Part shown: piece after piece, positions 47,716-51,005 of the stretch
How the letters are laid out: each line of letters starts with the position of its first letter
How positions within the stretch are numbered: position 1 is the first letter of the stretch
Origin: Rhodobacterales bacterium
GTDB taxonomy: Bacteria > Pseudomonadota > Alphaproteobacteria > Rhodobacterales > Rhodobacteraceae
DNA length: 64,000 bases
Direction: 5' to 3'
NCBI GenBank assembly: GCA_025362795.1
Contig: JANYFE010000014.1
Coordinates: forward strand, 62,001 to 126,000
The notes under the pieces: model-generated
Seen by the model: the letters and a program-made list of their open reading frames with translations, nothing else
Told to the model about the DNA's origin: nothing
Databases searched by the model: none
Position numbers and translations under genes: made by a program

Positions 47716-48324
47716 ATGCGCCCCGCCACCGAAGCCCTCATCGTGATCGACGTCCAGAATGACTTCTGCCCGGGCGGTGCCTTGGCCGTAGCCGAGGGCG
47801 ACCAGATCCTTCCCCGCATCAACGCCCTGATGGCCGAATTTCCCACCGTCGTCCTGACCCAAGACTGGCATCCGCACGACCATTCTTCCTTTGCCGAAAT
47901 GCACCCCGGTGCCGCCCCTTTCAGCCAGATCGAGATGCCCTATGGCAAACAAACCCTGTGGCCCCGCCACTGCGTGCAAGGCTCCCCCGGTGCGAAATTT
48001 CACCCCGGCCTGCACACCAACCCGGCGCAGATGATCCTCCGCAAAGGCTTCCGCACCGCCATCGACAGCTATTCCGCGCTGTTTGAAAACGACCACAAAA
48101 CCCCCACCGGCCTTGCGGGTTATCTGCAGACCCGGGACATCACCCACCTGACCCTTGTGGGCCTCGCCACCGATTTCTGCGTCGCCTTTTCCGCCCTCGA
48201 CGCTGCCAAATCCGGTTTTGACGTGACCGTACTGCAAGGCGCCTGCCGCGCGATTGACCTTGCCGGCTCGCTTGCCGCGCAACAGGCCGCGATGACAGCG
48301 GCGGGTGTCCATCTGCAACCCTGA
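47716..48324 (+). CDS. pncA: Nicotinamidase/pyrazinamidase
   Basis: This 202-residue enzyme converts nicotinamide to nicotinate in NAD salvage. The catalytic triad is visible as Asp in I-V-I-D-V-Q-N-D-F, Lys in L-R-K-G-F and Cys in T-D-F-C-V. The metal ligands are in Q-D-W-H-P-H-D-H. Its product feeds the NAPRTase encoded directly downstream (61 nt gap), so the two act in series. Confidence 0.95.
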   Translation: MRPATEALIVIDVQNDFCPGGALAVAEGDQILPRINALMAEFPTVVLTQDWHPHDHSSFAEMHPGAAPFSQIEMPYGKQTLWPRHCVQGSPGAKFHPGLHTNPAQMILRKGFRTAIDSYSALFENDHKTPTGLAGYLQTRDITHLTLVGLATDFCVAFSALDAAKSGFDVTVLQGACRAIDLAGSLAAQQAAMTAAGVHLQP

Positions 48325-48385
48325 CGTTTTGCGGTTGCACGTGCGCATTTCCCGGCGATAGTTGAACCCCAACGGGGAGAGTTTC

Positions 48386-49678
48386 ATGGTCGATATCGCA
48401 ACACGGGTCTGGAACCACAAATGGAAGATCGACCCGATCGTGCGGTCCCTGATCGACACCGATTTCTACAAGCTGCTGATGTGCCAGTCGATTTTCCGCA
48501 ACAAGCCCGACACCAATGTCACCTTCAGCCTGATCAACCGCACCAAATCCATCCGCTTGGCCGAGTTGATCGACGAAGGCGAGTTGCGCGAACAGCTGGA
48601 CCATGTCCGGTCACTTTCCCTCACGAGGGGCGAAAGCACCTGGCTGCGCGGGAACACGTTTTACGGCAAGCGCCAGATGTTCCGGTCCGATTTCATGGAG
48701 TGGTTCGAAAAACTCCGCCTGCCCGCCTATCATCTGGAAAAGCGCGACGGCCAGTTTGAACTGACCTTCGAAGGCAAATGGCCCGAAGTCATGCTGTGGG
48801 AAATCCCCGCCCTGTCGATCCTGATGGAACTGCGCAGCAGGCGGGTTCTGGAACGTCTGGGCCGGTTCGAAATCGAAGTCCTGTATGCCCGCGCCATGAC
48901 CAAACTGTGGGAGAAACTGACCCGTCTCCGCTCCATCGACGGCTTGCGCATCGCCGATTTCGGCACCCGCCGCCGCCATTCTTTCCTGTGGCAGGACTGG
49001 GCCGTGCAGGCGATGATCGAAGGGCTGGAAGGCAAATTTACCGGTACTTCCAATTGCTTGATCGCGATGCGCCGCGAGGTCGAGGCAATCGGCACCAACG
49101 CCCACGAACTGCCGATGGTCTATGCCGCCCTCGCCCGCAATGACAGCGAACTCGCCCGCGCGCCCTATCAGGTGCTGGCCGACTGGCAGGAAGAACACGA
49201 CGGCAATCTTCGCATCATCCTGCCCGATACATTCGGCACCGAAGGCTTCCTGAAACACGCGCCGCACTGGCTGGCATCCTGGACCGGCATCCGCATCGAC
49301 AGCGGCGACCCCGCCAGCGGGGCCGAAATCGCGATCCGCTGGTGGAAAGAACGCGGCGAAGACCCGACGCAAAAGCTGGTGATCTTTTCCGACGGTCTGG
49401 ATGTCGACAAGATCGAGGAATTGCACCGCCAATTCCTTGGCCGGGTCAAAGTGTCGTTCGGCTGGGGCACCATGTTCACCAATGATTTCCGGGGTCTGGT
49501 GCCGGGCGACGAGCTTGCGCCATTCTCGCTGGTCTGCAAGGCCGTTGCCGCCAATGGCCTGCCCACCGTCAAACTGTCCGACAATCCCAACAAGGCGATG
49601 GGGCCGAAAGCCGAGATTGCGCGCTATAAACGGGTGTTCGACGTTGGTGCACAGCAGCCGCAAGAGGTCGTGGTCTAG
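48386..49678 (+). CDS. pncB: Nicotinate phosphoribosyltransferase
   Basis: This 430-residue enzyme couples nicotinate and PRPP to nicotinate mononucleotide with ATP hydrolysis (Preiss-Handler pathway). The N-terminal [11 protein letters not shown], the phosphorylated-His region F-G-T-R-R-R-H-S-F, and S-G-D-P-A-S-G and [10 protein letters not shown] are family features. The start at 48386 follows GGGGAGAG. Together with pncA it rebuilds NAD from nicotinamide. Its stop is 3 nt from the convergent arfB stop. Confidence 0.95.
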
Positions 49679-49681
49679 CAG

Positions 49682-50104
49682 TCATTCCTCGCCCTCGGGC
49701 ACTTGTCGCCCTTCTTTCACCGCCGCCCGTACTTTCTTGCCGACCAGCCGCCGCTGCACCGACCCATAGGTCGGCTTGGTCGCAATCCGCCGTTTCGGCA
49801 CCACCAGTGCCGCCGCAATCAATTCCACCAACCGTTCGCGCGCCAGTTCGCGGTTCCGCGCTTGGCTGCGGGTTTCATCGGCCTGAATGACGATCGCCCC
49901 CTCATTGGTCCACCGCCGCCCCGCCAGCCGTTTCAGCCGCGCCTTGACCTGCGGCGTCAGATGCGGCGAGCGTTCCGCCTCGAACCGCAATTCCACCGCC
50001 GTCGACACCTTGTTGACGTTCTGCCCGCCCGGCCCGGTCGAACGGACAAACGCTTCCGACAGTTCCCAGTCAGCAATGGCAAGGGTTGGGGTGACGTGCA
50101 GCAT
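49682..50104 (-). CDS. arfB: Alternative ribosome-rescue factor ArfB (peptidyl-tRNA hydrolase, GGQ type)
   Basis: This 140-residue protein releases peptides from ribosomes stalled at the end of a non-stop mRNA. It has the class-1 release-factor-like catalytic loop S-T-G-P-G-G-Q-N-V-N-K-V (about residues 22-33). A basic C-terminal tail (R-R-L-V-G-K-K-V-R-A-A-V-K-E-G-R) enters the empty mRNA channel. The start at 50104 (MLHVTPTLAI) is chosen from family length. It has only a weak ribosome-binding site. The upstream 200 nt contain a leader ORF and an intrinsic terminator, described separately. Confidence 0.93.
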   Translation of the reverse strand: MLHVTPTLAIADWELSEAFVRSTGPGGQNVNKVSTAVELRFEAERSPHLTPQVKARLKRLAGRRWTNEGAIVIQADETRSQARNRELARERLVELIAAALVVPKRRIATKPTYGSVQRRLVGKKVRAAVKEGRQVPEGEE

Positions 50105-50124: not shown

Positions 50125-50163
50125 CCAAAAGAGAAAGGGTCGCCGGAGTGCGGCGACCCTTTC
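50125..50163 (-). terminator. Strong intrinsic terminator upstream of arfB
   Basis: On the minus strand GAAAGGGTCGCCG (50163..50151) pairs perfectly with CGGCGACCCTTTC (50145..50133) around a 5-nt loop, followed by TCTTTTGG. It ends the leader RNA about 20-30 nt before the arfB start, so any transcription from the leader must pass it to reach arfB. Confidence 0.93.
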
Positions 50164-50171
50164 CGAGTTCC

Positions 50172-50180
50172 AAGGAGATG
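50172..50180 (-). promoter_or_regulatory. Segment able to pair with the leader Shine-Dalgarno
   Basis: On the minus strand CAUCUCCUU (50180..50172) is complementary, with one G-U pair, to AAGGAGGUG (50303..50295) of the leader ribosome-binding site, giving nine consecutive pairs. Pairing would sequester the Shine-Dalgarno. This is seen from sequence only; folding was not computed. Confidence 0.5.
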
Positions 50181-50232
50181 GGGCTAGTTAGGCGTCCATC
50201 CAATCGGTGGTCTGTTCCCCAGGGGTCTGCCC

Positions 50233-50289
50233 CTATGAAACACTCCTTCCAACTGTCCCAACACCACTCTCCAATATCACTCTAGACAC
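50233..50289 (-). CDS. Putative 18-residue leader peptide upstream of arfB
   Basis: A GTG-started ORF encodes MSRVILESGVGTVGRSVS and ends in TAG. It has an exceptionally strong ribosome-binding site: AAAGGAGGTGATCC (50304..50291) precedes the GTG with the GGAGG 7 nt away. The coding region is followed by a small GGGG-CAGA-CCCC hairpin, the anti-Shine-Dalgarno segment and then a terminator. It could be a true small protein or only a translated leader. No family was recognised. Confidence 0.5.
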   Translation of the reverse strand: MSRVILESGVGTVGRSVS

Positions 50290-50290
50290 T

Positions 50291-50304
50291 GGATCACCTC
50301 CTTT
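50291..50304 (-). promoter_or_regulatory. Extended Shine-Dalgarno complementary to the full 16S rRNA tail
   Basis: AAAGGAGGTGATCC on the minus strand is complementary to all 14 nt of the conserved 16S tail GGATCACCTCCTTT. The plus strand from 50289 to 50305 (CTGGATCACCTCCTTTC) repeats that rRNA end. No other gene in this window has such an extended site. It would recruit 30S subunits very efficiently. Confidence 0.85.
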
Positions 50305-50348
50305 CAAAATGGTTGCCGATAGGGGGAGCGTGACACAGATTTTGTGTT

Positions 50349-50354
50349 TGTCAA
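50349..50354 (-). promoter_or_regulatory. Possible -35 element for the arfB leader
   Basis: TTGACA is present on the minus strand at 50354..50349, just after the transporter stop codon. A matching -10 hexamer at 16-18 nt spacing is not obvious (ACGCTC/CGCTCC), so promoter activity is uncertain. Confidence 0.35.
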
Positions 50355-50360
50355 AAGGTT

Positions 50361-50981
50361 TTACGCAACCCGTGCTGGCCTTTTGGCGACAAACAGGCGG
50401 AATGGCAAAAGTCCAAAGACAGCTATTGCGAATTTGACACACCAGTCCGCCACGGCCAGCGATACCCAGAACGGCACGGCCCATCCGATGCCCAAAAGTG
50501 CGCCGGGGTCTGCCGCCCAGGACACATCATTGCCCGGTTCCAGAAAGCTCAGCGACGCGGCAAAGGCGATGGTGAAAAAGATCACACTGTCCACCGTGGA
50601 CCCCAGCAGCGTCGAGATCAGCGGCGCCCGCCACCATGCGGCGCGGCGCAGCCGGTCAAAGATCGTCACGTCCAGCATCTGCCCCACCAGAAACGCCGCG
50701 CCCGACCCCAGCGCGACCCGCAATGTGACCAGCGGCCCGAACTCGGTCTGGATCTGGGCACCGATCACCGAACAGACCAGCCCCACCCCAAAGCCCGCCA
50801 GCACCACCTTGCGCGCCGCACTGGCACCTTGCAGCCGGTTGGTGATGTCGTTGACCAGAAACGACAACGGGTAGGTCAGCGCGCCATAGGTCAGGTACGC
50901 CCCCATCGGGTGCTGCACCAGAATGTTGGACGCCACAACGATGACCGCCATGGCCAGGATGCCTGGGACTAGATTTCTCAT
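50361..50981 (-). CDS. VUT-family (YhhQ-like) queuosine precursor transporter
   Basis: This 206-residue inner-membrane protein has about six transmembrane helices and belongs to the VUT/YhhQ family, whose E. coli member imports queuosine precursors (preQ0/preQ1). Features seen are T-Y-P-L-S-F-L-V-N-D-I-T-N-R, the S-G-A-A-F-L-V-G-Q-M-L-D-V-T-I-F-D-R-L and S-T-L-L-G-S-T-V-D-S-V-I-F-F-T-I-A-F segments. The start at 50981 is preferred over TTG at 51002; neither has a strong ribosome-binding site. The 58-nt gap upstream could fold into a long stem. Confidence 0.87.
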   Translation of the reverse strand: MRNLVPGILAMAVIVVASNILVQHPMGAYLTYGALTYPLSFLVNDITNRLQGASAARKVVLAGFGVGLVCSVIGAQIQTEFGPLVTLRVALGSGAAFLVGQMLDVTIFDRLRRAAWWRAPLISTLLGSTVDSVIFFTIAFAASLSFLEPGNDVSWAADPGALLGIGWAVPFWVSLAVADWCVKFAIAVFGLLPFRLFVAKRPARVA

Positions 50982-51005
50982 ATGGTTTTCCGTTTTTGAC
51001 AAGGT

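Follow-up and report, generated by a model that had tools for sequence, protein, structure and literature searches.

A probable small mRNA-like gene with an extended Shine-Dalgarno sequence and its own anti-Shine-Dalgarno segment in Rhodobacteraceae, divergently related to CC2171

The ribosome-rescue gene arfA of E. coli carries a terminator. The control of this gene by trans-translation (PMC8012679) resembles the locus described here in that a transcript end lies near a rescue gene; however, the arfA mRNA is truncated within the coding region, whereas here the terminator precedes the rescue gene arfB, and arfB is often absent. In trp-type attenuators, including rnTrpL/peTrpL of Sinorhizobium (PMC10117765), a short ORF is likewise followed by a terminator, and a small RNA encodes a leader peptide, but the element reported here has no supported antiterminator, no run of a single regulatory amino acid and no fixed downstream gene. 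The extended Shine-Dalgarno (SD) sites of Staphylococcus aureus (PMC13009471) likewise pair with the anti-SD over an unusual length close to the start codon, although they belong to a different phylum and the RNA of the window additionally has an anti-SD segment of its own.

Rfam holds a further RNA, CC2171 (RF01867), which is a Caulobacter sRNA with a gathering cut-off of 75 bits. CC2171 reportedly originates from tiling-array work in Caulobacter. It appears as the predicted sRNA MH_s33 in Mesorhizobium huakuii (PMC5596092) and is tabulated among improved Rfam structures (PMC11701678), and neither paper, in its accessible part, gives a function for it. In the open-licence literature, supplements excluded, no description was found of the coding content of CC2171 or of the arrangement reported below. 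The sequence-only reading of this DNA had stated that no description was known; this is to be qualified by the relation of the RNA to CC2171. For the R. sphaeroides sRNAs RSs0827 (StsR) and RSs0019, nothing was found in the accessible texts that ties them to this locus.

The window is the whole stretch of DNA that was analysed, with a length of 64,000 nucleotides. In all counts, the family is Rhodobacteraceae, as the named records show, and the class is Alphaproteobacteria, and loci carry numbers of the form L034. The element and its neighbours are arranged in the window as follows, from the upstream to the downstream gene.

50361..51002, minus strand: queuosine precursor transporter (QPTR), the upstream neighbour (TIGR00697, 95.3 bits against a cut-off of 50.95; PF02592)
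50349..50354, minus strand: −35-like hexamer TTGACA, read from the sequence
50332..50327, minus strand: weak −10 candidate CACGCT, with a 16-nt spacer from TTGACA
50291..50304, minus strand: SD AAAGGAGGTGATCC, 14 nt, read from the sequence
50233..50289, minus strand: ORF of 18 codons with GTG start and TAG stop, peptide VSRVILESGVGTVGRSVS by translation
50270..50293, minus strand: hairpin 1, UCCAGUGUC / GAUAUUGGA, which pairs the start codon region (predicted fold and alignment)
50220..50235, minus strand: stop-codon hairpin UAGGGG CAGA CCCCUG (predicted fold and alignment)
50172..50180, minus strand: internal anti-SD CATCTCCTT, which can pair with the SD (predicted fold and conservation)
50127..50163, minus strand: intrinsic terminator with a 13-bp stem at 50163..50133 and an interrupted U tract (sequence and fold)
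49682..50104, minus strand: arfB, ribosome-rescue peptidyl-tRNA hydrolase, the downstream neighbour (NF006718, 180 bits against a cut-off of 100)

The TTGACA hexamer, the SD, the 18-codon ORF, the anti-SD segment and the terminator, all five of which had been named in the sequence-only reading, were confirmed base by base at their positions. The ATG of arfB (50104..50102) lies 28 nt 3′ of the terminator stem, which gains a 14th pair, G-U, in the predicted fold. The hairpin at 50163-50133 was not listed by a simple terminator scanner of the window, probably because the U tract is interrupted. The SD AAAGGAGGTGATCC is presumably complementary to the 16S 3′ tail; a 16S copy was sought in the assembly, and none was found. 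The exact 14-mer occurs as a single copy in the whole assembly, and the predicted fold of the RNA spanning 50322 to 50130 has an energy of −88.3 kcal/mol (z = −5.43), a value that none of 200 shuffles reached. These two values, together with the conservation of the ORF length, the stop codon and the anti-SD segment given below, place the element beyond chance.

Near-matches to AGGAGGTGATC with at most two mismatches number 39 over positions 1-64000 of the window against 13.25 expected, and none of 100 shuffles had as many; codon usage is a likely cause of this excess. At 47716-49678 on the plus strand, a nicotinamidase-like ORF (named by look) lies directly 5′ of nicotinate phosphoribosyltransferase, and the two are likely to be an NAD salvage pair.

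The distribution of the element was determined using the SD-start pattern GAAAGGAGGTGRTCCRRTGTC with at most two mismatches, and the reversed pattern was used as a control. The pattern was found in 159 of 198 family genomes, with the reversed control in 1, and in 96 of 385 genomes drawn across the class, with the reversed control in 2; the matches are nearly always single per genome. In a DNA search with the element, 49 of 61 genomes matched at E ≤ 1, among them all 15 others of the window's genus; many of the weaker matches are the SD block alone or chance. Among the 39 family genomes with no match to the pattern, 28 have arfB. The element was found in 23 of these 28 arfB loci, mostly with a variant SD-to-start spacing or altered letters near the start (judged partly by eye), and in three of the 23 (L211, L221 and L225) it lies several hundred nucleotides from arfB. 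The other five loci (L204, L212, L218, L219 and L229) gave no element on a search of the whole locus.

The 203 fetched loci yielded 185 distinct elements, after L001-L003 were excluded by hand, L026 and L076 gave no hit and 13 duplicates were set aside. They form a family set of 90, consisting of 83 with QPTR directly upstream and 7 more, and a non-family set of 95, some members of which (L068, L071, L077, L079, L125, L126, L165 and L166) are probably unrelated genes with strong SDs. In addition, a named set was formed from 120 named records listed as matches to a stricter pattern, of which more may exist; among these listed matches, 7 of 119 elements are identical to a family-set element. All counts are non-independent because of the kinship of the loci. 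One record titled Exiguobacterium profundum (CP059262.1, a MAG; L305) holds a Rhodobacteraceae element, and its title is probably wrong. The distribution over these genome sequences indicates that the element is deeply conserved and that relatives occur widely in Alphaproteobacteria.

The relation to CC2171 was evaluated by comparison with the Rfam model. The window element scores 29.2 bits (E 0.0017), which is below the 75-bit cut-off, and the match runs end to end (model 1-159), including the 5′ block and the terminator; the inner helix of CC2171 is unmatched in this alignment. Over 289 class genomes, the CC2171 model gave 69 at E ≤ 0.01 and 9 above the cut-off. When 18 loci were scanned against all of Rfam at E ≤ 0.1, CC2171 was the only match, over the whole model (1-159). 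It was found in 7 of the 9 family loci scanned (29.2-45.7 bits), where both misses have a variant SD-start spacing, in 5 of 5 non-family loci, and in 0 of 4 arfB loci taken as element-free controls, one of which, L221, in fact has a variant element.

The block CAACxAU..GAAAGGAGGUGAUCCAGUGUCU and a GC-rich terminator are common to both RNAs, and the nine CC2171 relatives above the cut-off (L034-L042) have an ORF of 22-26 codons from the same GTG/ATG. However, the window element has a different ORF sequence and lacks the CAUUGUC/GACAAUG pairing seen in the folds of L037, L040 and L042. Moreover, the anti-SD mimic of the window lies in the 3′ UTR, whereas the best SD pairing of most non-family elements lies inside the ORF (67 of 94). 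The window copy is not filed as a CC2171 member, because it falls below the cut-off and lacks the inner helix, and it is called a divergent relative.

Within the CC2171 relatives themselves, CAUUGUC stands in the first codons (Ser-His-Cys-His) of L034, L037, L040 and L042 and is complementary to GACAAUG just 5′ of the terminator; L036 has CAUUGCC with GGCAAUG, which is a matching change. The ORF of L034, and less exactly that of L037, has a 16S-tail-like stretch able to pair with the SD.

In the predicted fold of the window RNA, the SD is paired to CAUCUCCUU with the terminator formed simultaneously. The anti-SD motif C[AG][CT]CTCC lies downstream in 184 of 200 distinct family elements, and a control motif of equal composition, C[CT][AG]CTCC, in 15 of them. 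At the anchored anti-SD site, the SD-pairing bases are kept in 176 of 182, and all four pairing combinations are seen. RNAalifold, applied unguided to 78 sequences, returned the SD:anti-SD helix, the start-codon hairpin, the stop-codon hairpin and the terminator. The alignment (78 of 90) and the swap test (73 of 90) took loci having the anti-SD motif, which favours that helix, and the unselected test is the count of 184 of 200; L100 was excluded from the alignment by hand, leaving 78 rows of 79 with the motif.

Both-side changes in the alignment amount to 74 cells compared with 21.1 in shuffles, and 97.3% of the cells are paired compared with 49-53% in slid controls. The terminator has 98.9% of its cells paired, with both-side changes at 6 of 8 pairs, and the stop-codon hairpin has 90.1% paired, with both-side changes at 3 of 3 consensus pairs. 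In hairpin 1, 96.5% of the cells are paired, and both-side changes occur at 1 of 7 pairs, in 2 sequences. The SD helix shows one-sided changes only and zero compensatory ones, because the SD hardly varies. Matched SD:anti-SD pairs beat swapped pairs, with none of 2000 permutations as good, where the difference is only 0.14 kcal/mol. The SD:anti-SD energy is unusual (<5%) relative to shuffled downstream sequence in 33% of 90 family elements and 14% of 94 non-family elements. Since the pairing energy rarely stands out, the case for the internal anti-SD rests on the conservation and place of the segment, and outside the family, as judged from these sequences, this case is weak. The sequence-only reading had proposed an alignment across Rhodobacteraceae; in it, the ORF length, the stop codon and the anti-SD segment are conserved, and the terminator and the stop-codon hairpin covary.

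Among the 83 elements with QPTR directly upstream, arfB is in the locus in 71, at a distance within 600 nt in 69 and about 1.7 kb off in 2. Eleven of the 82 judgeable loci are without arfB although at least 1.5 kb follows, and the contig of the 83rd ends too early. Among the named matches listed, QPTR lies upstream in 113 of 120 and arfB directly downstream in 67 of 120, and 43 of 120 loci extend more than 900 nt beyond the SD with no adjacent arfB; in 5 of those 43, arfB lies 1.1-1.8 kb further downstream. Paracoccus versutus, Rhodobacter viridis and Defluviimonas denitrificans are among the named species with no adjacent arfB. The gap from the terminator to arfB has a median of 36.5 nt and is at most 40 nt in 35 of 66 loci. 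In L211, L221 and L225, QPTR and the element stand together in the locus with arfB several hundred nucleotides beyond, and because of this distance the link between QPTR and the element looks tighter than that between the element and arfB. In the sequences surveyed, the family gene usually follows QPTR and often precedes arfB.

Outside the family, 94 of 95 elements have no arfB in the locus. The only one beside arfB is L131, from another family, in which arfB is on the opposite strand and starts 84 nt upstream of the SD, and the contig ends soon after the element begins. The next downstream ORF of the 95 non-family elements is on the same strand in 41 and on the opposite strand in 46, and none was found in 8. 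A recurring neighbour was sought with Pfam in 68 of 87 downstream and 68 of 91 upstream ORFs, and no Pfam family occurred in more than 3 of 68; these neighbour ORFs were chosen mechanically, and some short, truncated, near-duplicate or doubtful ORFs were excluded by hand.

Among the 90 family loci, 59 have TTGAC starting 47-49 nt upstream of the SD block; in the named set it lies within −54..−40 in 103 of 116 loci among the matches listed, and only 19 of 95 non-family elements have it upstream. The sigma-70 scores are barely above those of shuffles (7.86 vs 7.44 and 7.65 vs 7.13). The family element is taken as a putative gene of its own because the promoter-like TTGAC stands at a fixed distance and the element has its own terminator.

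The ORF has exactly 18 codons in 84 of 90 family loci and in 112 of 116 named loci among the matches listed. The stop codons of the 84 family ORFs are TGA in 34, TAG in 28 and TAA in 22, and TGG is observed in none, where 11.3 would be expected if the two variable bases were independent; the named set, among the matches listed, has TGG in 0 of 116 compared with 9.8 expected. The start codons of the 95 non-family elements are ATG in 53, GTG in 37 and TTG in 5, where the search itself demanded TG. The conservation of the start and stop codons is an indirect hint that the mini-ORF may be translated.

From the sequence comparisons, we consider the element, with a probability of about 0.72, to be an autonomous, self-sequestering small mRNA-like gene of about 190 nt that is divergently related to CC2171 of Alphaproteobacteria. 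In the sequence-only reading, an RNA of this length standing on its own had been only the alternative; as a small RNA or small mRNA it is now the better supported choice, on account of the promoter-like hexamer at a fixed place in the family, the terminator and the relatives with no recurring neighbour. Among the points that count against this interpretation, the gap between the terminator and arfB is short and offers no evident place for a promoter of arfB itself, and Caulobacter ncRNA regions are described as not translated (PMC4117421, in whose accessible part no statement specific to CC2171 was found).

One alternative is a ribosome-tail sink or trans-acting sRNA that works with no translation, by binding 30S tails or by binding of its CCUCC to the SDs of other mRNAs. 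Few parts of the element are as conserved as the SD block and the CCUCC/CUCC segment, and Rfam classes CC2171 as an sRNA, as this alternative would have it. However, the stop codon is kept at a fixed distance, which is needless for an untranslated RNA, and the SD and CCUCC are predicted to be hidden in each other, and we regard the alternative as unlikely.

An arfB leader or attenuator, where the behaviour of the ribosome on the mini-ORF sets the read-through of the terminator and arfB answers to translation status, was the first choice of the sequence-only reading. The conserved order of QPTR, element and arfB (71 of 83 with arfB; 67 of 120 directly downstream among the named matches listed) is consistent with it, as are the 35 of 66 loci with arfB at most 40 nt past the terminator. 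The element is also usual at arfB loci, even among the genomes that fail the strict pattern (23 of 28). Nevertheless, the intact SD and ORF are kept in the 43 of 120 named loci, among the matches listed, with no adjacent arfB; 11 of the 82 judgeable loci of the first set and 94 of the 95 non-family elements are without arfB; and 5 of 28 arfB loci are without the element.

As for an antiterminator, a candidate is the stop-codon hairpin, whose 3′ strand is similar to the 3′ arm of the terminator and could pair with the terminator's 5′ arm, and a first look was suggestive, with the 5′ arm paired upstream at a mean probability whose median over 77 loci was 0.61. However, this model was rejected: swapped pairs were as good as matched pairs in 605 of 2000 cases, pairing of the 5′ arm with the natural upstream sequence did not exceed that with a shuffled one (0.54 vs 0.56 in 25 loci, observed higher in 12), and the ribosome position, modelled by masks in 10 loci, had no effect. 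Where both strands are nearly invariant, the swap test can discriminate little, and hairpin 1 failed it too (512 of 2000). A mutually exclusive antiterminator and terminator were sought and found unsupported, and the SD:anti-SD pairing and the terminator coexist in the predicted fold. Control of arfB is thus unsupported as a general role, because the element is kept with no adjacent arfB and the antiterminator tests are negative, and we consider the leader quite improbable, while read-through into arfB is possible.

The entropy across the three codon positions is flat (0.83, 0.86 and 0.88 bits for codons 2-18 of the family set), and codons 13-18 are freely variable in this set, which indicates that the peptide sequence is little constrained; codon periodicity was rejected as a proof of the peptide, because it is flat. 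The near-absence of synonymous change at AGA of codon 3 and at TTG GAG of codons 6-7 points to RNA pairing. A microprotein gene, for which the 18-residue peptide would be the product and the RNA features would merely serve its expression, accords with the conserved start, stop and consensus VSRxxLERGVGT and with the synonymous variation at codons 2 (TCT/TCG/TCA) and 11 (GGG/GGA), but is very doubtful given this flat entropy, the free and the frozen codons just described and the dissimilarity of the window peptide to that of most non-family relatives.

Many of the non-family ORFs have EQPS/EQPL, EQPP or GQPP close to the end. In L054, L058, L133 and L155, that motif is coded by GRGCARCCTYC, which resembles the family GGCAGCCC hairpin 3′ of the stop codon; perhaps a single RNA motif is translated in one group and lies outside the ORF in the other. 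In L068, L071, L125, L126, L165 and L166, a similar long SD precedes a small ORF of 54-58 codons whose beginning is hydrophobic and resembles a signal peptide; these may be unrelated genes, or the SD block may have been re-used.

For the preferred reading, an autonomous and self-sequestering small mRNA-like gene, a mechanism can be proposed from the following features. The element is bounded by a promoter-like hexamer and a terminator, and a very long SD precedes the fixed 18-codon ORF. This SD has a possible partner in a conserved 3′ segment that mimics the 16S tail, and the start codon can be paired in a hairpin. We infer that 30S subunits would bind the RNA during its synthesis, as long as the SD is accessible, and that the RNA would fold shut once the anti-SD mimic has been transcribed. 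Translation of the mini-ORF would then depend on the ribosome arriving first, that is, on ribosome availability and on the speed of RNA polymerase. The closed or the ribosome-bound form might act on other mRNAs through a free CCUCC, as a 30S sink or through the peptide, and arfB, where it lies downstream, may receive some read-through.

A more far-reaching and speculative proposal, which we hold to be improbable as a whole, is that the element is a class-wide RNA gauge of free ribosomes, where the 16S tail and its internal mimic would compete for one SD and so report 30S availability. The RNA would be either ribosome-bound, with the mimic exposed and acting on other SDs or on arfB read-through, or closed, and the timing of the reset would fall to the mini-ORF with its fixed stop. 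In Caulobacter, of the same class, 75.4% of the genes are without an SD according to the accessible part of PMC4117421. The sequence comparison offers testable statements: the mini-ORF is conserved and has the single 14-nt SD of the assembly, the RNA has an anti-SD built in, and the fixed stop codon lies within a hairpin. Should the state of this RNA be set by ribosome availability, the element would serve as a simple natural sensor for free 30S subunits.
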